Assembly: GCA_025200525.1 (NCBI GenBank)
Contig: CM045761.1
Location: 39,068,190 to 39,132,189, forward strand
DNA length: 64,000 bases
Direction of reading: 5' to 3'
Source of the DNA: Camellia lanceoleosa
Lineage: Eukaryota > Streptophyta > Magnoliopsida > Ericales > Theaceae
In this document: one piece after another, positions 1 through 63,705 of the stretch
Numbering within the stretch: position 1 is the first letter of the stretch
Layout of the letters: each line of letters opens with the position of its first letter
Notes under the pieces: model-generated
Told to the model about the DNA's origin: nothing
The model's database searches: none
Seen by the model: only the letters and a program-made list of their open reading frames with translations
Position numbers and translations under genes: made by a program

Positions 1-389
1 GGGGATTGATGAGGTTTGGGAAGAGCGGGAAGTCGTCCCCTCGATTTATTGGTCCTTTTGAGATGCTTGAGAGGATTGGCGAGGCTGCCTATCGTTTAGC
101 CTTGCCACCACAGTTATCCGGAGTTCATAACGTGTTTCATGTGAGTATGCTTCGGAAGTATGAGCCGGATCCATGACATGTGTTGGATTGGACCGACTTA
201 GAGGTTAACGAAGATGTCTCGTATGAGGAGAGACCGGTTCGGGTTTTGGATAGACGGGATCAAGTTTTGCGAGGCAAGACCATCCCTTTGGTAAAGGTTT
301 TGTGGAAACATCACGAGGTGGAGGAAGCCACTTGGGAACACGAGTTGAAAGTCTGCGAGAAATATCCGGATATGTTTGTTGATATGTAA
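1..389 (+). pseudogene. Ty3/gypsy polyprotein 3' end: integrase C-terminus and chromodomain
   Basis: The reading frame opens at base 3 and is cut by the window edge. It starts with the integrase C-terminal module (SPRFIGPFEMLERIG, then VHNVFHVSMLRKY), which precedes the chromodomain in plant chromoviruses. An in-frame TGA at 174-176 interrupts it. After that, 180-389 encodes a chromodomain-like segment (IPLVKVLWKHHEVEEATWE) ending in a natural stop. In this family the chromodomain steers integration toward particular chromatin. The frame is otherwise open, so the copy is only lightly decayed here. Gag, protease, RT and the integrase core must lie left of the window. Seen: motifs and stop. Known: domain order in chromoviruses. 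Confidence 0.85.
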
Positions 390-820: not shown

Positions 821-1009
821 TTATAGCGACCCCGGTCTTTCCCTAGTTGGCTGTTGTATCCGGACTTAGGTTCCGTGGATCCTATCATTGTATAATTGTT
901 GTTGTCGTCCTTTATCTTCTTTTTTTGAGTTATAGGATGTGTTGGCAGGTTTGTTACAGGTTGGTTGGGTTTGGAAACCAAGTGTTGCTGTCCAAAATTT
1001 TGGACCTTC

Positions 1010-1386
1010 GCTCGAACGAGTAGTTGGTCGCTCGAGCGAGCTTTTGTTTTTGGTTCTTCACTCGAGCGAGGGTTTGGTCGCTCGAGCGAGAGTAGAATTT
1101 TGTGTCTGGTGGCTCGAGCCAGGGTCTCTTCGCTTGAGCGAGCGATTGCGTCTAGTATAGACCTGAGAGCTACGTTTCTTGGCTCGATCGAGCTTTCCTT
1201 TGCTCGAGCGAGCGAGGTGTATGTTTTCGAGTTCTTCGCTTGAGCGAGCATTCTGTCACTCAAGCGGGCTTCTGGGTTGCAGACCTGAAGCTTCGAGTTT
1301 TGGGCTCGAGCGAGACTTCCTTCGCTCGAGCGAGACTTTCTTGTGTCTTGTCGCTCGAGCGACCAATCCTTCGCTCGAGCGAGCCT
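1010..1386. repeat. CGCTCGAGCG palindrome array in G1 LTR
   Basis: About fourteen copies or one-base variants of the palindromic motif cgctcgagcgag are spread over 375 bp. They are separated by 15-30 bp of unrelated sequence. The last copy ends just before tatataa at 1391-1397, so the array sits where U3 promoter elements would be. Open frames here on either strand are products of the repeat and not genes. Confidence 0.9.
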
Positions 1387-2144
1387 GTTTTATATAATCG
1401 AGTGTAGCAGTTTTTAAAGCACTTTTTCACATTCTTTTTGAGTCCAAAACCCTAGGTCCGTGTTCTCTCTCCCTCCACTCACCTTCTCTCTTAGGTTTCA
1501 TCTAGTTTTAGGGTGTTTCTATCCTAGGCTCTTTATTAAAAAGATAGAGGAACACGAGGGCTTTACTTTAATCTGAGAGTTTGGCGGTTTGGAGCACTTT
1601 GGGATTTTCGTCATCTTCTCCATTCAAGTTCTTCACTTCGAGGTAGGGATTTCCTACTCCATATTATAGGTTTTGTCCTAAGTTTTGGTATTTTTGATAT
1701 GTGGGTGCCAATTGGTAAATTTGGGAAATTAGGGTTTGAATTATAGTTTGAAAATGGGGTTTTTCATCTATTAAACAACATATGTATGTATGTTGAATTG
1801 AAATAACTGAACCTTAGGGTTGATTTTGAGAAAAGGGGGAAAAGCCCTAATTATTGTAATAAAATTAATTCGTATAATTAATTTTGGAAAAAGTGTGGAA
1901 TTTGGTTTAAATTCTTGGAATTGAGATTATGTTTATTGATACATTTATTTCCTGTTTAGAAATAACTGTTTTGGGCTATCGGTGGAGGATAGTCGTGATT
2001 TTTGTAGACATTGCATGTTGATTAGAGAAAACTGAAACTAATCATATTGAATGAGTCATTGAATTTGACAGTTGAATTAATACAGCAAATACGTGTGTTA
2101 ATTGAATTTTGTGTATGTCAAGTGTTTATTACATTGCATATGCA

Positions 2145-2993: not shown

Positions 2994-4866
2994 GATTGTA
3001 AACGTCAAAAGAATTCTTAGATGTTTTGAGGTAATGTCAGGGTTAAAGATTAATTTTCGTAAAAGTGTGGTGTGTGGAGTTGGAGTTAGTGATACTGTGG
3101 TCCATGATTTTGCTTTAACACTGCGCTGCTTATGCCAAAAGCTATCTCTAAAGTATCTGGGATTGTCACTGGGTGTGAATCCATGAAGAAATAAGACTTG
3201 GCAACCTATGGTGGATAAGGTTAAGTCAAGGTTAGCTATGTAGAAAAGGAAGCTATTGTCATTTGCTAGAAGGCTAACTCTGGTGAAATCAGTTTTGGAC
3301 AGTGTTCCTGGTTACTATGTTTCTTTATTCAAATTACCCATTGGTCTTGCTAAGGAAATTGATAAGTTGAAGGCATCTTTCTTATGGGGCAATTCAAAGT
3401 TGAGAAGAAAGATACATATGGTACAATGGAAGGATGTAACATTGAGTAAGGACCAAGGAGGGCAAGGTATCAGGAAGGCAAGGAATACTAATGTTTGTAT
3501 GTTATTAAAGTGGTGGTAGAGGTATGGGGTGGATGATCATTCACTGTGGAAAAAGGTTCTTCTTAGGAAGTATGGGTTTGCAGGTGACAGATGGTTAACA
3601 CTACAAGATGGGGAGGGTAAGGAATCGATTTTGTGGAGTGATGTTTGAGTATGGAAAGATCTAATCCAAAGCTTTTTCAGTTCTTTGTGTCTCAGGGCAA
3701 GATTGTGGTTGGGAATGGGTGTAAGATTCAGTTTTGGCTTGATAGATGGTTCATGGATTTACAGTTGAAGGAGGAGTTTCCTAGATTGTTTAGGCTCTAT
3801 ATGGATAAAGACAGACTGCTAAGTTCCTTTATGCAGAGGAGGGACAGTGAGGGTGATTAAAGGCTTCAATTTAGAAGGTCATTATTTGCTTGGGAGGAAG
3901 AGGAGGTAAGGAAGCTGCAATTGTTGACAAAGGGCATCCCTAGGCTGAATATGGATATGCAAGATGTGGTAAGGTGGACTACATCCCCTTCTGGTGTGTT
4001 TACAGTGGTGTCTGTGAGAAAATAGCTTCTGTTAAGGTCTGGCCTGAGGTTACTTGTTCCTAGAATGATTTGGATTAATGAAGCACCACCCAAAGCACAA
4101 TTTATAAGTTGGTTGGCTTGGAGAGGTAGGATCAAAACATCTGTTGTTTTGTAGAGATTTGGAGTGTTAGGGAATATTGTTGTAACTGATTGCCCTTTTT
4201 GTTCACCTGCTGTAGAATCTCTGGATCATCTTTTTGTGCAGTGCTTTCAGATTTGGAAGGTTTGGGGATGTTTGCTACAGTGGTGGAATCTCTGGTGGAT
4301 ATCCCCTGCTTCTATGGATGGAGTGTTGTCTTGGTGGATAGGAACCAAGCATAAAAAATCTGTTAAGAAAATCTAGTTGCTGGTACTTGTAGCAACGTTG
4401 TGGTCCACTTGGAGGCTAAGAAATGAGGTTGTGTTTAATGGCAAGCAACCAGATATGAATGAGATGAGTGAGGTAGCGAAAGTGAGAGTTGCGCTGTGGG
4501 TTAAGTCTACATACCTTCTGTCTAGTACTCTCTGTGCATCAGATTGTGGAAAATTTGAGTCAAGTAAGGCTCTGTATTTGTGATGGCTAGGTGTTGGTGG
4601 TTGATATGCCTAGTCATTGATTATGGGTGGGCTGTTAGTGTTGTTGTCTGGTTTCTATTCTCTTTTTGGTTGGTTTCTCACTAGCCTAGGGTGGCACTGT
4701 CAGATGATTGTGTCTACTTCTGGGTGCCAACCTAGTTGGGATTTGGAGTGTAAACTATGATGATGTTTACGCCATCTTTCTCTTCCTTTATTGATGTATT
4801 GCTCATTTACTTTGTATTGACTGTTTCATCAATAAAGGTTTTCTTTTGATTGATCCAAAAAAAAAA
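2994..4866 (+). mobile_element. L1-type LINE, 3' part of ORF2 and tail (decayed)
   Basis: Translation gives the end of a plant L1 reverse transcriptase: RILRCFEVMSGLKINF, then LSLKYLGL, then FARRLTLVKSVLDSVPGYY. A zf-RVT-like module follows (CPFCSPAVESLDHLFVQC near 4190-4250), then TLWSTWRLRNEVVFNG. Stops at 3184, 3241, 3517, 3858, 4023, 4153 and 4374 and a frameshift near 3640 show it is dead. It ends with aataaaggttttc, gattgatcc and a short A run (4857-4866). The 5' part is missing because element G1 interrupts it at 2993/2994. Confidence 0.85.
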
Positions 4867-5610
4867 TTTAAGAGTCAATTTTCCCACCAACCAAAAAAAA
4901 GTAGCAATTGCCAAAATATATCCACACCAACCCCCACACCAAACCCCATCCCCCCTAAAAAAATAAGTCACTCAAAAATCAATACCGGACTCTACGATGA
5001 CTCAAGCTGAATATACTAAACTTCTTAATTTTTGGAAGTATCTCACCCAAAAATCCATTAGTTTCATATATATTTATAGAAAAATGCTATGTGTTTTTGT
5101 ATGCCTATGCTATCACTTAATGGGTGACAAGTTGAACTATTTGATGAGTTTAGCTAAGCACAAGCAGTTATGAATTTGAAAAACTTCAATGTTGCCTTGA
5201 GTTAAAATCAATGGCCTAATTTTACTATTTTATATATATATATATATATCTTCTATTGTAGCAAATGTTTCGAGGTTTTTTTTTTTTTTTTTGGCATACG
5301 AAAGTTTCCATTTTGAAGATGTACAGGATGAAAAGGGCTATGCATTTTTTCTGCCTAATTTACTAGTCAACCAATTTACCAAATGACCCTTGAAACCCTA
5401 ATCCCATTCTCAACCCAGATAGTCATCAACCATGCCATTTAGCTTAGTGATTGTGTATCACCATTTGTGATATGAGGTCTCAAGTTCAACTCTTATAGAG
5501 AGGAGTTTGATACCTATTGTGTTTGTTATTGATTTATGTATTCCCCCCTCTCTCCCCATTTCCCCATTATGGGAGTGGTATGTGATTAGTAGTGATTGTT
5601 AGGCTTGACT
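4867..5610. repeat. Duplicated segment, copy L, left piece
   Basis: The sequence is closely similar to 55880-57969, apart from a 1.3-kb insertion in the right copy. Shared landmarks include agagtcaatttt, tctcacccaaaaatcca, tgggtgacaagttga and aggcttgact. No gene is visible. The segment stops at 5610, where a CACTA element begins, and resumes at 31572. Confidence 0.85.
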
Positions 5611-6299: not shown

Positions 6300-6545
6300 G
6301 AGATTGGCAAGATGGAGGTCGACCAGCAGGGGTGACCGAGTGGGTGGACCAACTGCGAGGTGGACCGACCGTGAGGTGGACCGAGTGAAAGGGAGGACAT
6401 GAGGTGGATTGACCGCGAATCGTGGCCGAGTGGAAGGGCCGACCGCGAAGGTTGGCCGAGTGGGAGGGCCGACCACGAGGAGGGTTGAACGCGAAGGTTG
6501 GCCGAGTGGAAGGGCTGACCATAGGGAGGGCCGACCGCGAAGGGT
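6300..6545. repeat. GC-rich degenerate tandem repeat in G2 3' region
   Basis: Units like gaccgcgaaggttggccg plus agtggaagggcc recur about eight times with variation. It is much more GC-rich than the window average. Open frames across it on both strands are low-complexity products. Confidence 0.7.
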
Positions 6546-10139: not shown

Positions 10140-10350
10140 GCTTAGTTTGGCTGAGACTTGTTATGCTTGGTCTGGCTAAGGCTTGGTCTAGCTGAATGCT
10201 TCATGCTCAGTCTGACTGAGGCTTTTAAAGCTCGGGCTGGCTGAGGCTTATGGTGCTCAGTCTGGCTGAGGCTGTTGGCACTCGGTCTGGCCGAGGCTTT
10301 TGGTGCTCAGTCTGGCTGAGACTGTTGCCGCTCGGTCTGGCCGAGGCTTT
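10140..10350. repeat. Tandem repeat, about 30-bp unit, just 3' of Tat integrase
   Basis: Repeats of gctcggtctggccgaggc with a short ttttggt linker occur at least six times and degrade toward the left. Confidence 0.85.
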
Positions 10351-10539
10351 TTAATAAGTGCTGCAATAAAAATGTTATTGATACAACACATAGATAGCTG
10401 AGATATAAAATTGTTGTCATGGAAATTGTGATCCAGTTGATCAAAATTTACATTATGCCAGGGGAGAACAAGTATGTTCATGTGTGTAAATTCGTCAAAA
10501 ATAAAATACAATAACTGAGCAATAAAAAGTAGGAGTTTA

Positions 10540-11109: not shown

Positions 11110-11300
11110 CATATTTCCATTCATGTCAAAACGGCCTTCGGCCCATTCATTTATGTCAAAACGGCCTTCGGCCCATACATTCGTATCAAAACAGCCTTCA
11201 GCCCACTCATCCGTATCAAAATGGCCTTCGGCCCATACATTCGTACCAAAACGACCTTCAGCCCACTCATTCGTATCAAAACGACCTTAGGTCCATTTGT
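11110..11300. repeat. 30-bp minisatellite in G3 3' LTR
   Basis: The units are cggccttcggcccatacatt followed by cgtatcaaaa. There are about six, and the internal palindrome ggccttcggcc recurs in each. The 5' LTR has one more unit. Confidence 0.9.
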
Positions 11301-11689
11301 TCATTCATGTCAAACTTTGGTCCACAATCCCAATTAGCAACTCATAAGGCTTATGAGGGAATAAACAATTGGACATTCATAGGCATTCAAATATCGATAT
11401 TACTCACAGTGATCGGCTTGTGGATTTGCCCTGGAGCTTGACCCTACACATTTCATGAACACAAACGGGTCACTAACAGTTCAATCCGTTCTTTGATTCA
11501 CATATTCCTTTTTAGGCATTATTCCTATCTCATTAACTCATTTACAATGCTTAACATATGCCTAAGAGTGCTTACAAGTGAAAGAGAACGGAAAACGAAG
11601 CACAGAACGAGCATACAAAATTTCAGAGAACAGGGGTCCCTTTCGGCGTAAACTTCCTACTCGGCGGACCCTTAGGCTGCAAAAAATCT

Positions 11690-11840
11690 TGGTTGCATGA
11701 AAATACGCTCGAGCGGGGAATAGGGCGCTCGAGCGGAAGGCCTGTCCACAAAACTCCCCGCTCGAGTGTGAGATATCCCTCGGCGGATACTAATCGTAAA
11801 AAGTCTTTGGGAGCACGATTTTCCCGCTAGAGCGGACATA
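11690..11840. repeat. CTCGAG motif array in G3 3' LTR (partly lost)
   Basis: Three or four gctcgagcgg-like motifs remain. Compared with 18733-18960 of the 5' LTR, several copies are deleted or mutated. Confidence 0.75.
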
Positions 11841-12873: not shown

Positions 12874-15608
12874 GAAGTTTGGTCCTCCAAACTTAATTTA
12901 CCTTCATCGAGAAACAAATGTGGATAGCATAGTCGCATTTCCTCCTCTTTTTCCCATGTAGCATCTGTCCCATAGTATTCTTTCCATTCCACTTTCATCA
13001 ATGGGATGGATTTGCTTCTCAATTGTTTCACTTGCCGATCAAGAATCCATTCCGGCCATTCAGCATATTCCATATTTTCATCAATAGCAACCCAGTGATA
13101 ATCAATCATATGAAACGGGTCTTGGAGGTAACTCCTCAACATCTACACGTGAAACACATTATGGATTTGCTCAAATCCTGGTGGCAAGGCAACTCTATAG
13201 ACAACTGGACCAAGCCTTTCCAAAATTTGAAACGGCCCAATGTAGCGAGGTGACAACTTGCCCTTTTTTCCAAATCTGACTTGGCCTTTCATCGGAGAAA
13301 CACGGATGAACACATGGTCACCAACCTCATACTCGAAAGGTCTTCTCCAAACGTCTACATAATTCTTCTGTCGGTCTTGAGCTGTTTTGAGCCTTTGCCG
13401 AATGGTTTTGATCTTTTTAGAAGTGTCTTGCACAATTTCTGGCCCAAGTAAAGCTCTATCCCCGACCTCTGTCCAACAAATAGGTGATCTACACCTCCTA
13501 CCATACAAAGCCTCGTATGGTGCCATACTAATGCTGGAGTGGAAGCTGTTATTATAAGCAAATTCTACAAGTGGCAAATAATCTTCCCAACTCCCTTGAA
13601 AATCCAAAGCACACATGTGAAGCATATTTTTCAAAGTTTGTATCGTTCGTTCTGACTGCCCATCTGTCTGTGGGTGGAATGCAGTACTGAATCTTAGTTC
13701 TGTTCCTAAAGCTTCCTGCAAACTCTTCCACAATCTAGATACAAATTTCGAATCTCTATCCGATACAATAGATACCGGAACTTCGTGTAAACGAACAATT
13801 TCATCAACATAAATAGTAGCCAATCTATAAGCAGTAAATGTAGTTTTGACAGGCAGAAAATGTGCAGATTTAGTTAGCCTATCAATTACAACCCAAACAG
13901 AATCCATACCTCGAGAAGTGCGAGGTAGGCCAACAACGAAATCCATAGTCACATGTTCCCACTTCCATTCAGGAATAGGGAGAGGTTGAAGTAGACCGCC
14001 TGGTTTCTGATGTTCAGCCTTAACTTGCTGACACTGAAGACACTTGGACACATATTCTGCAATCTCTTTCTTCATTTTAGGCCACCAATAGGTCTGTTTC
14101 AAATCCCGATACATTTTGTTGTTACCCAGATGCATAGCAAATACGGACCTGTAGGCTTCATCTAAAACCCTCTTTTTCAGTTCCGAGACATCAAGGACAC
14201 ATATTCGGTTTCGGAATTTCAACATTTCATTTCCAATGCTAAATTCTGCTTTTGGACTTGTCTCAAACTCATCAATCACCTTTCTGAGGAACTCATCCTC
14301 TTTCTGTTTCTGTTTCTGCTTGATTTCATCAACAATTGCCAGCTCGGCTGTAATAGCGGCTATCAGAATGCCCCGTTCACCTACTACTACTTCAATTTCA
14401 GACTTCTCAAAGTCTTGCAAAATCTCCCTTTGTTCGGTAAGCAAACAAGCCACACCCCCTGTTGATTTTCTGCTCAAGGCATCAGCCACTGTATTAGCTT
14501 TCCCGGGGTGATACTGAATTTCTAAATCGTAATCTTTTATCAATTCCAGCCATCTTCTCTGATGCATATTCAACTCTTTCTGCGTGAAAAAGTATTTTAG
14601 GCTCTTATGATTTGTGTAGACTTCACATTTTGCCCCATACAAATAATGCCGCCAGATTTTCAAAGCAAAAACAACTTCGGCCAGTTCTAGGTCATGTGTT
14701 GGATAATTCTTCTCGTGTGGCCTCAATTGTCGAGAGGCATAAGCAATAACCTTCCCGTTCTGCATTAACACACAACCCAAACCTTTGTAAGATGCATCAC
14801 TGAAAATCACAAAATTCTCCGTACCTGAAGGTAATGTCAAAATTGGTGCAGTAGTCAATCTTGTTTTCAATTCATGAAAGGCTGATTCTCTTTCTTCGTT
14901 CCACTCAAATGGTTGCCCTTTATGTGTCAATTGGGTAAGAGGCACAGCTAATTTCGAAAAGTCCTTCACAAACCTCCTATAGTACCCGGCTAAACCCATA
15001 AAGTTGCAAACTTCTGTTACATTGGTCGGTGTAGGCCAATTCATGATTGCCTCTATTTTTTGCGGGTCCACTGAAATTCCTTCCTTGTTGATCACATGCC
15101 CTAAGAAAACAACTTTATCCAACCAAAACTCACATTTCTTTAGCTTAGCAAATAATTTCCTTTCCCGAAGTATTTGTAAAACAGTTCTCAAGTGATGTTC
15201 ATGTTCAAGTCTATCTTTAGAGTATATCAAAATGTCATCGATGAAGACTACAACAAACTCATCAAGGTAGGTTTTAAAAATTCTATTCATTAGGTCCATA
15301 AATACTGCCGGACCATTAGTCACTCCAAACGGCTTAACAAGAAACTCAAAATGACCATACCTTGTTCTGAATGCGGTTTTCTCAACATCCTCTGCCTTAA
15401 CTTTCAGTTGATGATACCCGGATCTCAAATCAATCTTAGAAAACACCTGTGATCCCTGTAACTGGTCAAATAAATCATCAATACGGGGTAGGGGGTATTT
15501 GTTCTTTATTATTACCTTATTCAATTCCCGATAGTTGATGCACAGGCGCAAAGTACCATCCTTCTTTTTCACAAATAGCACTGGCGCACCCCAAGGCGAA
15601 GTGCTGGG
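12870..15608 (-). pseudogene. G3 pol: reverse transcriptase, RNase H, integrase, chromodomain
   Basis: The frame reads through from gag-protease and is interrupted only by TGA at 15609-15611 and TAG at 13140-13142. The N-terminal RT has the catalytic [10 protein letters not shown]. RNase H shows [10 protein letters not shown]. The integrase zinc region ends CLQCQ. The integrase core has its aspartates in DFVVGLP and SDRDSKF and its glutamate in GQSERT. The C-terminus ends [17 protein letters not shown]-like. After the second stop, 12870-13139 encodes a chromodomain (IPLMKVEWKEYYGTDATWE). The first stop looks like a CGA to TGA change; the second is not a simple transition. Length and domain order are normal for a chromovirus. 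The copy cannot make the whole polyprotein. Confidence 0.9.
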
Positions 15609-17297
15609 TCAGATAAACCCCTTATCAAGCAGGTCCTGCAACTGTTCTTTCAATTCCTTCATTTCAGCGATAGCCATTCTGTAGGGAGTTTTAGAAATAG
15701 GCTGGGTGCCTGGCACAGTCTCAATAGTAAACTCTATCTCCCTGTCTACTAATTCCCCTGGTAATTCATTCGGAAATACATCCGAAAATTCTCTAACAAT
15801 GGGAATATTATTCAATTCAACATTCTCAGATTGTTCAGACAACACATAGCACAAATAACCTTGGCACCCTTTCCTGATCAGTTTACATGCTTTTATTGTA
15901 GATATCAAATATGGTGGAGGCACTACCCCATTGCCCACAAACACAATCTCTTTCTGTTCCGGTGGTTTAAACACAACCCTCTTTGTCACACAATCTATTG
16001 TGGCACAATATTTGGTCAACCAATCCACGCCCAAAATTACATCGAAATGTCTAAAGTTCAAGGGCAACAAATCTACATATGGGGTAACATCCTCAATATG
16101 CATAACACAAAACCGATATATATAGTCACATAACATAGATTCCCCCGATGGAGCAGACACACATAACAAATATGGCAATAACTCTAGGGGTCTATTCAGT
16201 CTAGATGCAAATGTATATGTCACAAACAAGTGGGTTGATCCAGAGTCAATTAATACAAAGGCATCCTGATTACATATTGAAATAGTACCTAAGACAACGA
16301 CATTGGCATTCCGTGTATCGCCCGGAACAAGTGCAAAAACACTTCCCTGTCTCACTGTATCCCCAGCAGTAGCAGATCTCAAGGTATTTCCCGGCTGTGG
16401 AACTGATGCAGTTGAACTAGCTACTATCCTTCCACCGTTCTGATTACACTCTCGGGCTATATACCCTTGTTTCCCACACCTGAAACAGGCTCCTGATGCA
16501 CGGTAACAGACTCCACGGTGCCTTTTGCTACAAATGTTGCACATGGGAGCTGTGTCTCGGGAAGAACTTGAAGTAGTTGAGGAGCCCGTGTTTTGCTTTT
16601 TCGGAAATTTCTTCTTCAAAAAGAAGCCTTGTCTTTTGTTGCCTTTCCATTCTGCTGTTGGCCTAGCTTGTCTAGCTATGTTAGCCTCTAATATGATGGC
16701 CCTGTCAAGTACCCCAATGTAGGTTCCCAACTTCAGGACATTCACTCTCTCTAGGATGTCACTTCGGAGCCCACCTTCAAAATGTCTTACCTTCTTATAA
16801 TCAGTGTCAATTACGTGTGGTGCAAACCTAGCCAACTCAGTAAATTTGGCCTCATACTCAACTACAGTCATGCTGTCTTGCTTGGGTTCCATGAACTCTG
16901 CCACTTTCCTGTCCCGGACACACTGCGGGAAGTACTTGTCATAGAAGATTTCTAAAAATTTCGCCCAGTCAACATCTTTGTGGTTTTCTCGCATCAACAT
17001 CCACCATCTCCTTGCTTTGTCTTCTAGCATAAAAGTGGCCAGAAGAACTTTCTGAGTCTCTGAACAGGGGAACACTTCAAATAATTTCTCAATACCAAGG
17101 ACCCACGCTTCGGCTTTCAACGGATCTAATCCCCCGTGGAGCTGTGGTGGTTTCATTTTCTTGAATTCCTTGGTGAGAGCTATTATTCGGTCATCATTTT
17201 GATGATCTGGCATGGGTGGTGCCGGAGGTGGAGGTGGCGGTTGTGGTTGCTGCCACTATTGTTGCCACTCCTGTTGCTGTCTCAAAGCTTCTGCCAT
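15609..17297 (-). pseudogene. G3 gag-protease
   Basis: The likely original start is the ATG at 17295-17297 (MAEALRQQQ). A TAG at 17256-17258, apparently from CAG, breaks it after 13 codons, so the longest open stretch starts at 17213. The retrotransposon gag domain includes ARRWWMLMRENHKDVDW and FPQCVRDRKVAEF. A zinc knuckle follows, CFRCGKQGYIARECN, where the usual histidine is tyrosine. The protease active site is FVLIDSGSTHLFV. It is in the same frame as pol, separated by one stop. A gag lacking the knuckle histidine would be expected to package RNA poorly. Confidence 0.9.
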
Positions 17298-18179: not shown

Positions 18180-18385
18180 TTCCATTCATGTCAAAACGGC
18201 CTTCGGCCCATTCATTTGTGTCAAAACGGCCTTCGGCCCATACATTCGTATCAAAACGGCCTTCGGCCCACTCATTCGTATCAAAACGGCCTTCGGCCCA
18301 CTCATTCGTATCAAAACAGCCTTCGGCCCATACATTCGTATCAAAACGGCCTTCGGCCCACTCATTCATATCAAAACGACTTTAG
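18180..18385. repeat. 30-bp minisatellite in G3 5' LTR
   Basis: About seven units of cggccttcggcccactcatt plus cgtatcaaaa. A minus-strand open frame repeating NEWAEGRFDT is only the translation of this array. Confidence 0.9.
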
Positions 18386-18732
18386 GTCCATTCGTTCATT
18401 CATGTCAAACTTTGGTCCACAATCCCAATTAGCAACTCATAAAGCTTATGAGGAATAAACAATTGGACATTCATAAGCATTCAAATATCGATATTACTCA
18501 CAATGATCGGCTTGTGGATTTGCCTTGGAGCTTGACCCTACACATTTCATGAACACAAATGGGTCACTAACAGTTTAATCCGTTCTTTGATTCACATATT
18601 CCTCTTTAGGTTTTATTTTTATCTCATTAACTCATTTACAATGCTTAACATATGCCTAAGAGTGCTTACAAGTGAAAGAGAACGGAAAACGAAACACAGA
18701 ACGAGCATACAAAATTTCAGAGAACAGGGTCC

Positions 18733-18960
18733 CCGCTCGAGCGTAAACTTCCCCGCTCGAACGGACCCTTAAGGCCTGCAAAAGTACTGGTTGCATGAAA
18801 AATATGCTCGAGCGTGGAATAGAGCGCTCGAGCGGAAGGCCTGTCCACAAAACTCCCCGCTCGAGTGTGAGATATCCCGCTCGAGCGGATACCCAATTCT
18901 GTAAAAAGTGCTGGGAGCACGATTTTCCCACTCGAACGGTCATTTCCCCGCTCGAGCGGA
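18733..18960. repeat. CTCGAG motif array in G3 5' LTR
   Basis: About eight motifs of type ccccgctcgagcgg. They are spread over about 230 bp. Confidence 0.9.
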
Positions 18961-45200: not shown

Positions 45201-48200
45201 ACTTAGATGAATGTATGGAGTTATGTCATTTTTGTAATTATAAGGTATATACGATACACATTTTGAGGAGTGAAAAATCTAGAAATCCCCTAGATGTTGA
45301 TTTGTGATTATATATCAATTTTGAGCAGTATATAACAATCTCAATCAATCAATCAAGACAAATCGACACAACGATTTTACGTGAAAAAATCACAATTGGA
45401 CACCTCTAATTGTGATAAAAAATCACGGGCAAAAGCCATAAAACAATCCACTAAAAAAATATAAAGGAATTACATAGGTATACTCTCAATTACCTAGCGA
45501 ATCCACGTCCGAATTGAACCAACCTCTATGTGTCTCTTCCAACCCCGTCTTCACCTCGGAATTGTCTTGACGATGAGCCACTCCAGAATCCACCAAAGCT
45601 TCAGGCTCGAATTCTTCAGAATCCACCGAAGAACAACTTTCTCTTTTATGCAGAACAAACAAATAATCATTTGATGTATACTCTTTAAACCATGAGTTGA
45701 ATACTCAATCAAAACATCAAAGAAAACTAGCAAAATATCCCTAGATATAATCCTTAATATCCAAAAAGAAGATCTGGAGAAGTAAGTCAAGCTTTGGGAG
45801 AAAACCAACTACTTATAGAAATCCAAAGTAATCCTAGTTTTGGAAGAAAACCAATTCCTTATAGAAATCCGGATTTTGAAGCTCGCTCGAGCGAAGCTTC
45901 TCTCGCTCGAGCGAGAACCTTAACTCGCATGATTTCTACTAGTGCCTTCGCTCGAGCCACGAAGTCTTCGCTCGAGCGAGGAATAAACTCTTTCAAGTTT
46001 TTATGCAGACGCAGTTCTTCGCTCGAGCCACTAATGCTTTGCTCGAGCGCACAATGACCTCTTTCAGGTTTTAAGCCAGACGCAGTCCTTCGCTCAAGCG
46101 AGGATTTCTTCGCTCGAGCGAGCAAGGGCCGACAGTCAACTTTGAATGCAATTTTGCATTTTGCTTTAGGCGCGAGCTAACTGAGCAACTCGACCGCCAT
46201 CATAATCAACGAAGTGGCAATCTTGAAAGTATTAACATTACAAACTTCTCTGCAAGACTCGATTCGGGTTGGATTCGCATCTAATAAACGCATAGCCTCA
46301 CTGTAATAAAAGTGCGAAAATAAATACAACTGAAAGGAGTTTTGTGAAACGGGATTGCCAAGAATAAAAACCTAACAATCTCTCCCTTTGGCAATGCCGT
46401 GACAAAACACACCTAACAAATAAAGTCCTAAACACCGCAACCCATTACAGCCAACAAAAGCCAACTTCTTTCTCAAGGTCATGATTTGCAAAACAGTTAT
46501 TAGTGTCATAATCTCCAAAACAAATATTAGTCCCACAAGAGTATATGAAAAAACAATAAACATATGGCTAGACTATCTTGAAGCATTTGAAGCATGAGAT
46601 GGAAAACATGAATAGATGTGACTTGGAGATTTTAAGAACATGTAGCATGAAAACCTGAAAACTAAGACATATGTACCCGACACATGACATGAATACATGA
46701 AATCCTAAGACACATGAAAAACAACTTTCTCCCCTTTTTTGTCACGAATTTACAAAGGAAGCTCAAACAACAAAAGCAAGATCATAAACCACACAAGCAA
46801 TGACATAATAACGATTAACCGAACTCCCCCTCACTAAAAGCAACCACAAACACTGAAAACAGTGAACAAGAAGAAAACGACAAAAATAATATGGTGGAGC
46901 AAGCAAGGAATTTTAGAGATGTACTTTAAAACACACAAGATTATCCAAGAAGTACAATTACTTGAAAACACAATGTGCACAGCCTGTAGAAGATTCCTCA
47001 TAAAAGAAAGTGATGCATTATGTGAAAAGCATAGATCCCATAAGAAAAGTGTGTGTGTGACTCTTGGAGTTCGACAAACACTAGATTCAATCCTAGTAGT
47101 GATCTGAAAGTTGGACCTTCGACAAGAGAATCTAAGCACAACTAAGGAAAGTCAAACCACTAGGAATCAAGGGGTATTTGTTGAGTAAAAACAGAGGCTC
47201 CCCCTCAATCAATGAATCCTTTTTTTTTTCTTTCTTTTTCACATTTTTTTTTCTTTTGCACACTCATTGGTGGCTGACACACTCAAGAGTATGGAAACCG
47301 AACCAGAGAAGTATGGATATAATAAGGATGGCCTGGTTGGTGACTCTGAGGTAACCTTTTCCTTATGGCTGGACTACAAAGAACAGAGGGGAAAGCCGTG
47401 GAGATGCAAAAAGATGGAAGGTGGTTAAGAGACTCAACATCACTCAAGATATGCTAGTATCGGTCAATTCCGCTAGAAAAACAAAAGATACCATGCCAGA
47501 AGTCCATAGAGAAAAATGATCACTGAGGCGGAAGACACCAATATTTGCTAATCCAAGAGTGTGTACAGAATGAGACATACCAATCAAAGAACACACACTC
47601 CGAAATGAGTAATAACCACAGAAAGCACACACATATTAACATGTAATGGATATTTTTATCAATTCCAATATATACCAAGGATCACTCAAAAATTTCAAGC
47701 TTGCAAAACTATACTACGAAAATCTTTTTGGATTTTTTTTTTTCAACAATAAAGCAAGACAAAAAAACGAACAAGCACACATTTTTTTTCTCATTAAAAC
47801 AACACACAGAAACCCAAAACCTAAAACAAATAAATAAATTAACACAAGTCAAGTTTTATCACCCAAACTGCTTTAGTATAAACAAAGTTGTGAGCATTGC
47901 GGTTCTTGGGTCGTGTCTTGACGTTGTGGTTCCCTTTGCTTTCAATGGGAACCCGTCTCGACTTGGTTTCCAACTTCCTACTTTTAGATCTAGGCAAATA
48001 CACTCTCCCATGCAACTTATAACAATAAGGGCGAATATGACCATGCATACCACAATGATGACAAATAAAAACAGGGTGTACAGGGTGTACCTTCTTTTCT
48101 TTTACCTTATCAATTCTAGGAAGTTTGAGAAGTCCATCCTTATATTGAATTTTTTGTTCTCCCTTTCCTTGAGTTCTTGTATCATGAGATGTGGAAGCAC

Positions 48201-51200
48201 TCTGTTTTTGCTCTTTCTTACCACCAAACCCAATGCCACTCTTGTCAGAACAAATTTGTTGAGACCCAATGATATTGTCCAAAGTCTTCTATCCTTTGTT
48301 CCAAAGACCAATGGTAGCCATAGCACACTTGAGTTCTTCATCTTTCTTGATCATTAGTTCTTCCAAAGCAACTTGAGACATCTCAAGAGTTTCAATCTTT
48401 TCTTCATATGTTGCATAGATTTGCTGTAGCTCATTCCTTTCTGTCTCACAAGTCAAGAGTTTCGCACAAAGAGCTTGTCGATCATTAGAAATCTTGATGG
48501 CATCAATCCTAGCCTCGGAAATCTCTTTCTTTAATTTGACATTCTCACTTTCGCATGCTTTGAGTTTCATAGTGAGTTTGTCATTCAATTTGGATAAGTT
48601 AAGAGATTCCTTATACAACTTTTCATAAGCTTGCTCAAGCTCTTCATCATCACTCTCTGAGGATTCATCATCAATGGCTTTCTCAACCGATCTCTTCGGA
48701 TACTCTGTTCGTCTGTCAGTTTCGGAAGCCGCCATGAAAGCAAGGAATTGTTTATGTCCCTCTTCGTCTTGATCTTCGTTGTCACTTTCATCTTCATCAG
48801 ATTTTGATTCATCATCCCAAGTGATGGCAAGGGCTTTTTTTTTCTTCAAACGAGTGGGGCATTCTGAAGCAAAGTAGCCAAATCCTTAGCATTCATAACA
48901 TTGGACTCTTTCGGAGTTCCCTTGTATCTTTCTTTTTTCCTTCTTGGCTATAGAATTAATTTTGAGTTTATCTTTGCCTTTAGATTTATGAGTATGAGTA
49001 GATTCCAAAATATTAGGATTCTTTTTCAAAAAAGATTTTTTAAAATTGTTTAACAAAAGCAGCTGTAATCTTGGAATCTATCTTACAATCCTCATCAAAA
49101 TCCTCTTCAACTCTATGAGCACTACTAAAAGCAATAGCATCTTTTTGTTTCTTTTTGAAATTCCTATGTGCCTCATAAGTTTGGAGATTTCCAACAAAGT
49201 GATCCAGCTTGAGGTTGTCAACATCTTAAGCCTCCTCAATAGCCGTAACTTTTGATTGGAACCGATCGGGCAAGGATCTCAAAATTTTTCCCACAACTTT
49301 GGATTCTGGTATTTTTTCACCTAAATTGAAGCTGGAATTTACAATATCACTCAACTTCACATAAAATTCATCAAAGGTCTCACTATCTTTCATGGAAAGG
49401 TTTTCGAAACTAGACGTGAGCCTTTGAAGTTTTGAGCATTTAACAGAAGGAGTGCCATCATGAATAGTTTGTAAGATATCCCAAGCCTCTTTTGCAACTT
49501 CACAATTGCAAATATGACTAAACTCTTCAATGTGTGACAGCGCAAAAAAGAGAATTGATAGCTTTACTATTCCAGCTACTATTTTGGTAATCAATTGTGT
49601 CCCACTTATCAATTGGTTTGGGAAAAGTTACTCCATCAACGGTAATCGTTAGTTCGGTCCACCCATACATGACAGATTGCCAAACTTTTTCATCAATAGA
49701 TTTTAAAAACGATCTCAACCGAGCTTTCCAAAAAGAATAATTGGATCTGTCAAGTAGGGGTGGTCGAACCGTAGAATTTCCCTCACGAATTGTATCCATT
49801 ATCACAAATCAAACAAGATCCCGCTCTAATAGATTTGTAAAAAAAAAAAAAAAAAGATAGAGCGACCCGCTCTGATACCAATTTTAAAATCTAGAAATCC
49901 CCTAGATGTTGATTTGTGATTATGTATCAATTTTAAGTAGTATATAACAATCACAATCAATCAATCAAGACAAATCGACACAACGATTTTACGTGGAAAA
50001 ACCACAATTGGACAACTCCAATTGTGATAAAAAAATCACGAGCAAAAGCCACAAAACAATCCACTAAGAAGATATAAAGGAATTACACAGGTATACTCTC
50101 AATTACCTAGCGAATCCACGCCCAAATTGAATCAACCTCTATGTGTCTCTTCCAACCCCGTCTTCACCTCAGAATTATCTTGATGATGAGCCACTCCAGA
50201 ATCCACCAAAACTTTAGGCTCGAATTCTTTAGAATCCACCGAAGAACAACTCTCTCTTTTATGTAGAACAAACAAATAATCCTTTGATGTATACTCTTTA
50301 AACCATGAGTTGAATACTCAATCAAAACATCAAAGAAAACTAGCAAAATATCCCCAGATATAATCCTTAATATCCAAAAAGAAGATCTGGAGAAGTAAGT
50401 CAAGCTTTGGGAGAAAACCAACTACTTATAGAAATCAAAAATAATCCTAGTTTTGGAAGAAAACCAATTCCTAATAAAAATTTGAATTTTGAAGCTTGCT
50501 CGAGTGAAGCTTCTCTTGCTCGAGCGAGAACCTTAACTCGCATGATTTCTACTAGTGCCTTCGCTCGAGCCACAAAATCTTCGCTCGAGCGAGGAATAAA
50601 CTCTTTCAGGTTTTTATGCAAACGCAGTTCTTCGCTCGAGCCACCAATGCTTTGCTCGAGCGCACAATGACCTCTTTCAGGTTTTAAGCCAGATGCAGTC
50701 CTTCGCTCGAGCGAGCAAGGGCGGACAGCCAACTTTGAATGCAATTTTGCATTTTGCTTCGGGCGCGAGTTGACCAGGCAGCTTGACCCCCGTCATAATC
50801 AGCGAAGTGGCAAACTTGAAAGCATTAACATTACAAACTTCTCTGCAAGGCTCGATTTGGGTTGGATTCGCATCTAATAAACTCATAGCCTCACTGAAAT
50901 AAAAGTGCGAAAATAAATACAATTGAAAGGAGTTTTGTCAAACGGGATTACCAAGAATAAAAACCTAACAAGGAGTACGAACCATATTCTTTTCCAATAT
51001 TTTGATATTTTAATCCTATATTTTAGAAAATCAGAGTGGAGGCAGGGTAGAATGGAGTTGGGAAGAAAGGAGTAAGATCCCCTCCAGTCCAGATTTTGGA
51101 TTGGAGGGCACTGTTTGGGTCGGTGAGACCCACCATGGGTCCCGTTTCTATGATCTGAACTGTTCATTTTGTTGGGCACTTCGTATATTTCATTCATAAA

Positions 51201-53404
51201 AGAAACTAGGTCGATCCCATAGGTGTAACATGTTTAATTTTTCACTAAAAAAATAGATAACAATTGTGTTTTTAAAAATAAACTATACATTTTTTTTAGT
51301 GACAAATGCAATAAATTAAACAAGTTACAGTTATCGGATTGACCTAATTTTTTGTGTGAATGAAATAGACGAAATGTCTGACAAAATGAACAACAGGACC
51401 CGTGGTGGGTCTTACGGGTCCAAACAACGCCCTCCAATTCAAATCTGGATTGGAGGGGATCCTAATCCGAGAAGAAAAATCAATCCTTGCCTTAATAAGA
51501 CTTATGAGGGATGGATTGAGTAGAGAGAAATTCACATCCCTAATCACAGTTTGATTATAGTATTAGAGCCAAAAATAGAAATGACTACGAGAAAACTTCA
51601 TATTGAATTTGTTATATGGTTTTCAAATAAATGAAAGAGTTTGACAAGTTGCTAATTTGTGGTGCTTCATGGTTGCAGATAAAAAAAAAATTAGATACGT
51701 TGGCAAGTAATGGAACAACGGAAATTGATATTGGGACCTTTAACACCTCGCAATTGTGGAAAAAGACTCACAAGTATTATAGATATGTTGGTTCTCTCAC
51801 CACTCCTCCATGCACTGAGATAATGTTATCTGGCATGTCTTGGGCGAGGTACTAGCTAGTACATTTCATCAACAAAATTTTCATTTGCTTCTTCTAGAAT
51901 AATTAGAATGTTCCCTTTTCTTAAAAAGAACGAAAGAAATACTAGTATAATAATATAGTTACTCCTAATATATAAAATAATATTATTATAACTATCCAAG
52001 TAAATTTTTAGATCTTATTTTGTTGGGACTGTACGTACTTTTTTAGAATGTTTTACACTTGTATTTAATTTAATAAAATTAGGGAAAATTATTTAAAAGT
52101 CCTATTAGGGGGACTTGTGCTACATTTGGTCCCACAAAAAAACTTATGTTCCCATAAGTTCTATGGGCAGTTTCTTGACATATTTACCCTCAATATTAAT
52201 TGTTAATATCATAATTAATAAGAAAACCATATATAGGGAAATTGATATAAACGTAACGTAACGTGACACCTACATGAACGTAACGTGACACCTATACATA
52301 ACGTGACATCGACATAAACGTAACGTGACACCTACATAAACGTAACGTGACATCTATATAAACGTAACGTGACATATCTAACGTGACATATCTACATAAA
52401 CGTAACGTAATGTGACACCAAATATGAACGTAACGTGACACCTACATAAACGTAACGTGACACCTATATAAACGTAACGTGACATATCTACATAAACTTA
52501 ACGTAACGTGACACCTATATAAACGTGGCGTGAGACCAATATGAGCGTGGCGTGACACCTACATAAACGTAACGTAACGTGACACCTAGATAAACGTAAT
52601 GTGACACCAATATGAACGTAACGTGACACCTACAGAAACGTAACGTAACGTGACACCTATATAAACGTAATGTGACATTTACATAAACGTAACGTAATGT
52701 GTCACGTTACGTTTCGCAAACTTAATAAGCTTTTATTTTTTTAATCCGTTTGTTTTGAAATAGATATATAATCTTAATATATTTTTATTTTGTATTATTA
52801 ATTGTAAAATTTAAAAAATTATTAATAATATATGTGAAGAATATCGTCAAATCATGTGTGCATGAGAGAGAGAGAGAGAGAGAGAGAGATTCTATAAATT
52901 GGATCTAAACAATGAGTTCAAATCAAACAATAATAGGCATTTCCACTGATCATAGGCAAAATTTCAACACAACCCTGCCATCCATCTTCAAAAAAACTAT
53001 CGACAGTTCAAAAACCCCATTATAACAATACACAGAGTAACACCTGAGGCTTGTTATCTTCTCTATACTCTTTTTTTTTTCCTTTTTCATCTTTTTTCTT
53101 TAATTTTCCAAACATCAACAAAAATCACCTGAAAAAACATTTATATTTCCATCTTTCACAATGCCCAAATCCATTTCGATAAAATCACAATGTTGAAATT
53201 CATTCGCAGAAATCAAGACAAGTAGTTAAATAAGATGTCACAATAGATTTCCAAAAATTCGCAGTTATATCATTTTTTCAAGAACATTCAAAGGAATAAC
53301 AAAGACAAGCTGCAACAACAGAGCAAAAATGTAGGATTTGGAAAAGGAAAAATCTGGTATTAAATATAATAAAGAACAAAAATTTAGAACACAATAGTAA
53401 ATTT

Positions 53405-62018: not shown

Positions 62019-63705
62019 TTACATATGAAATTACATCAATAAAGTAGAGCACTACAACAAAAAGCGCTTTTGGCGACTAAAACTTCAATTTTCGTCGCTG
62101 AAACTAGAAGAAATGGCGACTAAAATGGAATTAGTCGCCAAAATTGATAACTTTTCCCGACTAAAACAGTGTAGTCGCCAAATGTAAGTGTTTTAGCGAC
62201 TAAAAGGCAGTTTAGTCGCCGAATGTAGGCTTTTTAGCGACTAAAGGTTGTTTAGTAGCCAAAACTCATAGTTTTTCGCGACTAAAATGATTTAGTAGCC
62301 AAATGTGACGGATTTGGCGACTAAATCTGAATTTCATCGCCGATTACAGGTGTTTTGCCGACTAAAAACTGTTTCGTCTCCCAAAGATCAAGAATTGGCG
62401 ACTAAAATTTAGTTTCGTCGCCAAAGTAGAGGTTTTGGCGACTAAAATTTAGTTTAGTTGCCAAAAGTGCTATCCTTAGGCGGAATTGAATTCTTTTAGC
62501 GACAGAAAACAAATTAGTAGCCAAAAAATGAAGAATTGGCGACTAAAATTCAGATTTAGTCACCGAAAGTACTATCATATTTTTTTTAGTAACTAATTTA
62601 TTTTTTACATAAATAATATTAAATAAAAATAATTATTTATATATATATATATAATTTTCTATTAATACCAGTAAAAATAGTATATAAATAATATATGTTG
62701 CAATAATAATCATGTGATATGGTAGTGGCGTAGTGGGGGACGAAGTGTTGGTACAGTTCAAGGTGTTGGGACTGGACGCTGGGTTAGGTTCGATACTTGG
62801 GAGCAGAGGCAATTCTTTTTTTCTTTTTTTTTGAAAAATGGTTTTGGCGACTAAAGAGTTTAGTCGCCGAAAGGTATGCGTTTTGGCGACGAAAAGTTTA
62901 GTCACGGAAAGGTGTAAATAATAAATAAAAAAAAATCACTATTGGCGACTAAAAGTTTAGTCGCTAAATGTAAAGTTTCCAAAAATGGAATTGCATTTGG
63001 CGACAAATTGTTTCGTCGCTGAAGACATATATATTGGCGACTAACAGTTTTTTAGTCGCCAAAGGCATCCGCGACCATATATTGGCGACAAGACGGGTGA
63101 CTAAAATTTTTAGTCGGGAAAAGTGAAATTTCGACATTTGGCGACTAAAATAGGACCTTTGGCGACTAAAAATTTGGTCGCCAAAGGTGTTTTTTTTTTG
63201 TAGCGGAGGCAAGGGCAGAAAACATCATAGTATAACTTCCTAATCCCAATTGGGTTAGTACCAAGAAGAACACCCAATCATATGCTAGCTCAAGCCAAAA
63301 AAGTTGGTGACAACCAATAGAAAAGGAAAAGAACAAGACAAACAATCACAGTTCTCAACACAATAATACAACAAATTTAGCAAATATCAAAACCAAAGAC
63401 CACCATCGCAAAGATATAAAGACACAGCAGCAGGCACCTCTGAATCTCCTATGTTCCTTCTCTGCAGCATAGCTCTCAGATGCACTTTCTCACCTGCTGA
63501 ATGCTTAACACAATTTCATTTATAGAATAGAAACAACCTAGATCATGTGATTTCATCCAAAGGGCCACTCTTACTTTGATTAGGTTACATAATTCTTCTA
63601 GATTTGGTTGAGTATCAGCAAAAGTGCACCTATTTCTATATTTCCACACAGACCAAATCACTGCTATAGGGATAGCTCTCCATACTTGCCTTTCATTCTT
63701 CCTAT
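61967..63705 (-). mobile_element. L1-type LINE 3' end, copy R, split by a CACTA element
   Basis: The tail is at 61967-62040, with an A run (61979-62016). The coding remnant at 63476-63705 reads IWSVWKYRNRCTFADTQPN and LIKVRVALWMKSHDL, matching 36795-37020. The 5' boundary at about 63705 abuts a phrase also present at 41737-41766. Confidence 0.78.
62050..63205. mobile_element. Non-autonomous CACTA element, 1156 bp, with dense GGCGACTAAA repeats
   Basis: The ends are CACTACAACAAAAA and TTTTTGTAGCG (last copy one transition from GTAGTG). A 3-bp duplication gag flanks it (62047-62049, 63206-63208). The empty site is in copy L at 36533-36535. Throughout, ggcgactaaa and tttagtcgcc alternate in both orientations, leaving only a short unique centre (62580-62830). 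No transposase. Confidence 0.87.

Follow-up and report, generated by a model that had tools for sequence, protein, structure and literature searches.

Paired palindrome arrays in gypsy and copia LTRs of Camellia lanceoleosa as a candidate U3 module common to two retroelement superfamilies

Retroelements and palindrome arrays in the window

The window analyzed here is a stretch of 64,000 bp from Camellia lanceoleosa (contig CM045761.1, positions 39,068,190 to 39,132,189 of the forward strand), in which two gypsy elements and one copia element carry arrays of a short palindrome in their LTRs. The first gypsy element, G1, lies on the plus strand and is represented by the end of its integrase region (3..386), where matches to SH3_Tf2-1 (1.6e-23) and Chromo (0.0017, under Pfam's cut-off) are found with a stop codon between them. 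G1 has in this way the C-terminal SH3/chromodomain feature by which chromovirus gypsy integrases are recognized. A polypurine tract (809-820) sets the start of its 3' LTR, whose U3 part extends over 821..1390, and the start indicated by self-repeat in a related element is consistent with this position. The array within U3 (1009..1381) comprises 14 sites, which form seven pairs at a pitch of 20 bp (1009/1029, 1059/1079, 1111/1131, 1181/1201, 1237/1257, 1303/1323 and 1352/1372). A TATA-like box, TATATAA (1391..1397), follows 10 bp past the last site, in line with the initial annotation of this DNA, which had described the G1 array as ending directly before such a box.

The second gypsy element, G3, is encoded on the minus strand, and its coding frames (13146..17255) consist of a gag-protease frame (15612-17255) and an RT-RNaseH-integrase frame (13146-15608). 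Its 5' LTR holds eight sites (18734..18958) in four pairs at 20 bp, with gaps of 51, 33 and 51 bp between the pairs. The array in the other G3 LTR (11706..11834, minus strand) is decayed, with four sites left and one alignment gap of exactly 20 bp. When this decayed LTR (11640-11800) is compared with its partner (18725-18900), three separate sites now read TCGGCG, as if the central A had been lost each time; such a threefold change in one LTR copy would be odd if the decay were independent. The single-base-deletion form TCGCCGAGCGA was found five times in a 250-kb sample, against 52 exact 12-mers, and because of this scarcity the TCGGCG form was not adopted as a second functional motif. Both G3 LTRs also hold a second tandem array (11118-11297 and 18183-18397), built of a 30-bp unit with GGCCTTCGGCC; read in the element's sense, it lies downstream of the palindrome array. 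Beside G3, at 10204-10351, lies a 25/50-bp tandem array with the inverted repeat core CTCGGTCTGGCCGAG.

The copia element is likewise read from the minus strand. Its LTR a contains eight sites (45884..46120), arranged as four pairs at 20 bp with pair gaps of 45, 51 and 51 bp and including a 71-bp tandem unit. The TATA-like box CTATAAGG (45857..45864, minus strand) stands 20 bp past this array in the element's sense. In LTR b the box is not intact, and the array (50497..50713, minus strand) has seven sites, one pair having lost a site through a gap of exactly 20 bp. A polypurine tract (46378..46391, minus strand), which we take to be SIRE-like in form, adjoins the start of the 3' LTR (TGTTAGG). 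Copia-type gag frames occupy 49226..49808 on the minus strand (PF14223, E 2.3e-17 for 49226-49627). Seven of 21 listed frames in the 3.5-kb internal part, chosen as the likeliest among those with 63 aa or more, were scanned and yielded no pol domain, and the pol of an autonomous relative was not found in one 4.5-kb stretch of contig C13. The window copy (46386-49880) looks gag-only, and five other LTR pairs are also spaced about 4.6-4.8 kb apart. The family is numerous, with 6,675 first-look candidates for the R-U5 part, 40 of which were scored. These data suggest a large, non-autonomous, gag-only copia family.

Several other repeats are present in the window. GC- and CpG-rich tandem repeats, GACCGCGAAG...GGCCGAGTGG, form another CpG peak at 6343-6545. 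An irregular array of AACGTAACGTGACACC units with periods of 22 and 49 bp is located at 52255-52695, and GGCGACTAAA / TTTAGTCGCC motifs are arrayed with alternating orientation at 62068-62571.

Paired sites and the families that carry them

The site unit is a palindrome of 10-12 bp, (T/C)CGCTCGAGCG(A/G), with flanks that differ by family, T...A being found in G1 and copia and C...G in G3. For the window counts, array sites were defined by at most two mismatches to CGCTCGAGCG, and overlapping shifted matches were removed. GCTCGAGC has 28 matches in the window, compared with a mean of 0.13 and a largest value of 2 in 100 dinucleotide shuffles. The decamer with at most one mismatch has 36 matches against 0.11 expected, all 36 of them within the five arrays, and no other perfect palindromic decamer of the window is as frequent as CGCTCGAGCG, which has 17 copies against 3 for the runner-up. 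In a genome scan (3.0 Gb, 790 contigs), exact TCGCTCGAGCGA occurred 75,578 times and its reversed control 45 times. The shuffles and the reversed-pattern control rule out chance or base composition as the source of the arrays. The initial annotation had reported palindrome arrays in the G1, G3 and copia LTRs; they are present where it placed them, far above chance, and its approximate copy numbers of 14, 8 and 8 correspond to the sites counted in G1, the better-kept G3 LTR and copia LTR a. The paired 12-mer gave no match in viral contigs. Judged by title, the papers listed for the decamer seem incidental, and those listed for a named CTCGAG motif include no plant factor.

The fixed pairing of the sites had been overlooked earlier and was found here. 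Pairs with a pitch of exactly 20 bp number seven in G1 and four each in the better-kept G3 LTR and copia LTR a, and random placement produced seven pairs in 0 of 200,000 trials for G1 and four pairs in 3 of 200,000 for G3 and copia. The same spacing was followed in further loci with L numbers (L005 etc.), which are fetched genomic stretches chosen for holding sites, arrays or a copia LTR. The pairing sample consisted of stretches around 50 exact TCGCTCGAGCGA sites among the matches listed (contig C1, 0.47-3.46 Mb). The resulting set comprised 31 arrays of at least three sites each, 26 from C1 and five from the window, with smaller groups dropped and a cut-off of 8/10 letters. In this set, 20-bp pairs take in 200 of the 250 sites, the other 50 being unpaired at 20 bp. 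A distance of 20 bp was recorded 100 times, 19 bp once and 21 bp three times, and the distances next in frequency after 20 bp were 51 and 31 bp. Twelve copia-LTR loci were also measured, counting the two LTRs of the window itself and L029, where a gypsy-like array is present as well; the 20-bp distance occurred 42 times in them, and distances of 19 or 21 bp did not occur. Lone sites accounted for 4 of 151 at 9/10 letters in L005-L024, stretches that had been chosen for holding sites. The second, gypsy-like array of L029 (2520-2939) has pair gaps of 25 bp and lies at most 1.1 kb from the copia array.

No triplet at 20-bp pitch was found in the 31 arrays at 8/10 letters or better, indicating that the pair is the unit and not a plain 20-bp tandem repeat; an origin of the arrays as such a repeat by slippage was rejected on this ground. 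At the lax cut-off of 7/10 letters, the copia copy L030 has sites at 20, 20 and 20 bp. Slippage is a route of site loss, as shown by the exact 20-bp alignment gaps.

Clustering of 28 arrays by their flanks yielded 15 of G1 type, seven of a group termed F2, two of G3, two of copia and two singles. Against the G3 pol protein, the principal pol stretches flanking G1-type arrays reach about 52-64% identity and those flanking F2 arrays 63-83%; pieces flanking L020 range from 32 to 60%. Since these stretches can be aligned to G3 pol, the gypsy carriers form one related set, and the array-bearing gypsy LTRs are associated with Ty3-type gag/RT/integrase domains. The pol similarity shows G1 and G3, both gypsy elements of chromovirus type, to be related to each other. 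The initial annotation had counted three families; the sharing between gypsy and copia stands, but the relationship of G1 and G3 reduces the carriers to two groups. Class assignment is uncertain for L018 and L023. The L023 array (4794-4964) has a flank 79% identical to the window copia linker (47081-47533); it may be a linker array and not an LTR one, an arrangement reported for env-bearing Sireviruses. Some array-bearing LTRs are close to host genes: at a distance of about 4 kb, one array (L018:8979-9533) neighbors an adenylosuccinate synthetase frame and another (L022:8729-9832) a B3/AP2 transcription factor frame.

By simple patterns, a TATA-like box occurs within 25 bp past the array in 5 of the 28 (L005, L007, L010_4847, window G1 and copia LTR a), and none was seen within this distance after F2 or G3 arrays. 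Several further G1-type arrays show, by eye, TATATC-like strings at the place of the box. The sharing of the motif by gypsy and copia and the TATA-like box after the G1 array point to a regulatory target.

Site conservation, shared spacers and competing explanations

The sites are better conserved than the sequence between them. Across six G1-type arrays, identity is 96.5% at non-CpG site positions, 78.6% at CpG positions and 76.6% in spacers, and the respective values for four F2 arrays are 92.6%, 85.8% and 76.3%; the sites compared were chosen by motif similarity, which somewhat favors higher site identity. Within G1-type sites, the letters C3, T4 and A7 are kept in 172 of 172 and G8 in 86%. 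In 100 pairs, 173 deviations from the consensus site were counted, 113 of them CpG transitions; this predominance is the mark expected of copies methylated after insertion. It fits decaying, methylated copies of source elements that kept the site.

Comparison of whole arrays between gypsy and copia was largely negative. In masked local alignment, the best copia z was 3.2 (with L018) and the others were at most 2.1, L005 being left out, and four same-sense 8-mers were shared between copia and G1-type arrays against 4.03 expected. Antisense 7-mers were in excess, both between copia and G1-type arrays (29 vs 16.6, p 0.003) and between copia and F2/G3 arrays (22 vs 10.5, p 0.017). Among the gypsies, F2 and G3 arrays align (z 7.3-12.4), and most G1-type arrays align weakly or not at all with F2/G3 (z up to 4.9; L007 vs G3, 10.1). 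Window G1 failed to align with L017_4234 of the same flank group (z 1.4). Because arrays of one group can fail to align, alignment failure was not strong evidence of independent origin here.

At the level of single spacers, the 51-bp spacers of copia have their best match in the 50/51-bp spacer located after the third pair in G1-type arrays. The match covers about 35 bp; sense and register agree, as do length and geometry. This G1-type spacer in the same sense takes the top three of 198 spacer-orientations (99 spacers in two orientations) and an F2 spacer in antisense the fourth, in a ranking based on 14 copia-locus spacers, four of which come from the window's own LTRs. For window copia unit 1, a score as high was reached against all targets in 0 of 5,000 mononucleotide and 1 of 5,000 dinucleotide shuffles. 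For two other copia copies 8-13 of 5,000 shuffles were as good, and unit 2 was weaker (36 and 80 of 5,000). The copia 45-bp spacer has no gypsy match (p 0.13). The earlier description of the spacers as unrelated holds only in part.

The matching spacer belongs to a composite block, pair-TGCGTCT-N7/8-ACCTGA-pair, whose order, sense and geometry are equal in gypsy and copia. It is located at 1111..1210 on the plus strand in G1 (TGCGTCT at 1147, then N7) and at 46020..46120 on the minus strand in copia (TGCGTCT at 46084). The string TGCGTCT-N4-9-ACCTGA, which was chosen from the alignment before counting and searched in loci fetched for array content, occurs 16 times in 307 kb on both strands. 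Fifteen occurrences are distinct, since L025 is the window's own LTR, and of these five are gypsy and ten copia, including L041. Every string is flanked by sites, one at -15/-16 and a second at +26 to +35, and both flanking pairs are complete around 9 of the 15. L041, a further copia LTR from the C1 sample, keeps the spacer block though it is only 67-75% identical to the window copia; the block might therefore be a second binding site under co-selection and not a trace of descent. A spacer word, CTGCAAAARTACTRG, recurs across families (L007, L018, L023 and window 18776-18800) and may be a second shared element.

Given the composite block and the alignable copia and gypsy spacers, together with the kinship of G1 and G3, the initial view that common descent is unlikely finds no support. 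Alignable spacers, which had been named as a sign of one homologous insertion, are in part present in the form of this block. The interpretation that we favor, as somewhat probable, is a U3 cis-regulatory module that is recognized by a dimer-of-dimers factor and has been exchanged between superfamilies. The working unit would be a palindrome pair with centers 20 bp apart, about two helical turns, and one sequence-specific protein would contact it as two dimers on nearly the same DNA face. Each palindrome would be bound by a dimer, and dimers 20 bp apart would bind together. Such units, four to seven in the better-kept window arrays, may act upstream of the promoter as an enhancer, or alternatively as a landing platform that shields against silencing. 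Chromovirus-type gypsy LTRs and the copia family would use one module, of which at least one block may have moved by sequence exchange, e.g. template switching or ectopic conversion, as the alignment suggests. Later spread would have involved tandem duplication (the 71-bp copia unit) and copy-number growth. The data show the enrichment, the pairing, the position in the G1 and copia LTRs of the window, the stronger conservation of sites and the spacer similarity, and from there we infer the bound protein, the activation, and the route and direction of exchange. Our confidence is slightly lower because the TATA-like box follows only part of the arrays and because the antisense 7-mer excess is left unexplained, which weakens the proposal. 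Among the options raised earlier, a module moving among LTRs fits better than pure convergence, given the shared block. The main alternative to exchange is that the spacer contains a second binding site kept by co-selection.

Pure convergence on one host factor would let the protein set the 20-bp pitch and leave the spacers unrelated except for further binding sites. It is consistent with the better conservation of sites than of spacers, with the family-specific flanks and pair gaps, and with the chance-level result for copia in the masked alignment and the same-sense 8-mers. We nevertheless consider it rather unlikely, as it does not account for a spacer match in the same sense and register with equal length and geometry, and the alignment of F2 with G3 arrays indicates that descent operates among the gypsies. 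Tentatively, and also as an unlikely possibility, a selfish composite enhancer of about 100 bp might be passing between Gypsy and Copia within one plant lineage, served by one host- or TE-encoded dimer-of-dimers factor and co-switching the elements that carry it, with sites at tens of thousands of places.

Self-complementary sites could also pair into a stem as RNA or single strand, the U3 RNA then feeding small-RNA silencing or packaging, a view that has been argued for the palindromes of maize Sireviruses. Three arrays do fold as RNA better than their shuffles (z -6.84, -6.64 and -6.45), and small RNAs are drawn to maize Sirevirus palindromes according to the available text of PMC10760457. 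Compensating changes, however, numbered 10 in the partner site against 12.5 +/- 4.6 expected (100 pairs) and 12 within the site against 12.1 expected. Without a compensating excess, the sequence rather than base pairing appears to be kept, and hairpin coupling of the sites was rejected. Moreover, any stem-former would suffice, yet the letters are fixed, and loops need no exact 20-bp pitch, making this explanation quite improbable; the structure may be a by-product.

A role of the arrays as a CpG-rich element by which the LTR escapes methylation, or as a passive CpG island, is in keeping with a CpG observed/expected ratio of 1.21-1.43 in the five window arrays versus 0.60 in the window, but it is very improbable and protection from methylation was rejected, since the excess of CpG transitions at paired sites makes the copies appear methylated and CpG positions of G1-type arrays are kept barely above spacers and far below non-CpG positions, which also weakens the earlier suggestion of a CpG element for escape from silencing.

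Relation to known systems and implications

Palindrome arrays upstream of a TATA box are already known in Sireviruses. As described in the available text of Bousios et al. (2010, PMC2829016), the repeated motif (RM) boxes of these elements are CpG-rich, comprise at least eight palindromic copies located in the LTR's upper half and start 200-400 bp past the PPT/LTR junction. The same text has them forming CpG islands shortly before a conserved TATA box of SIRE-type copia elements, describes them as Sirevirus-specific, and gives a CGG-CCG core for 12 of 13 published RMs, Tnd-1 being without it (PMC2829016). The copia array of the window resembles them in copy number, with eight sites in LTR a (LTR b has seven), and in place, as about 257 bp separate the LTR start (46377) from the array (46120), past which CTATAAGG follows 20 bp on. 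A single position in each half-site separates the Vitis RM, CGGTCGACCG (PMC2829016), from CGCTCGAGCG. In contrast to the published boxes, the core here is CGCTCGAGCG instead of CGG-CCG, the same motif is found in gypsy LTRs and not in Sireviruses alone, and the sites are paired at a fixed 20 bp, whereas no such pairing is reported for RM boxes in the available text of PMC2829016.

A maize Sirevirus palindrome, CACCGGACNNNGTCCGGTG, is also common in Helitrons, as far as the available text of PMC10760457 describes it. The likeness lies in one palindrome that occurs across TE superfamilies and is clustered in the LTR cis-region; unlike the motif described here, the maize palindrome has another sequence, its sharing is between copia and Helitrons, and it was studied there as RNA structure. 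For gypsy elements, the LTRs of Del/Tekay can have CpG islands and a variable, CpG-rich 5' part, while the eudicot Del group studied is without a CpG island and the string 'palindrom' is absent from the main text (PMC4029996). Del/Tekay probably represents the same broad gypsy lineage type as G1 and G3, and the likeness consists in the CpG-rich 5' part of the LTR.

As far as the literature search goes, the sharing of a motif by gypsy and copia, the strict 20-bp pairing and the composite block are new here. No report of gypsy-copia sharing of this motif was recognized among the papers listed, which does not prove absence. Short repeated cis-motifs acting in TE transcription or anti-silencing include the U3 boxes of Tnt1/Tto1, the heat elements of ONSEN and the VANC-bound arrays of VANDAL, each in a single family and with motifs other than this one. 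To our knowledge, fixed palindrome pairs common to superfamilies are not known in any of these systems.

Sirevirus-type palindrome arrays are extended to gypsy elements, and the exact pitch, together with many natural variants, renders the binding rule directly testable. If the module has been exchanged between superfamilies, LTR promoters would evolve as a shared pool instead of family by family, and a single factor, from the host or from an element, could switch on together a large share of the retrotransposons of this 3-Gb genome.
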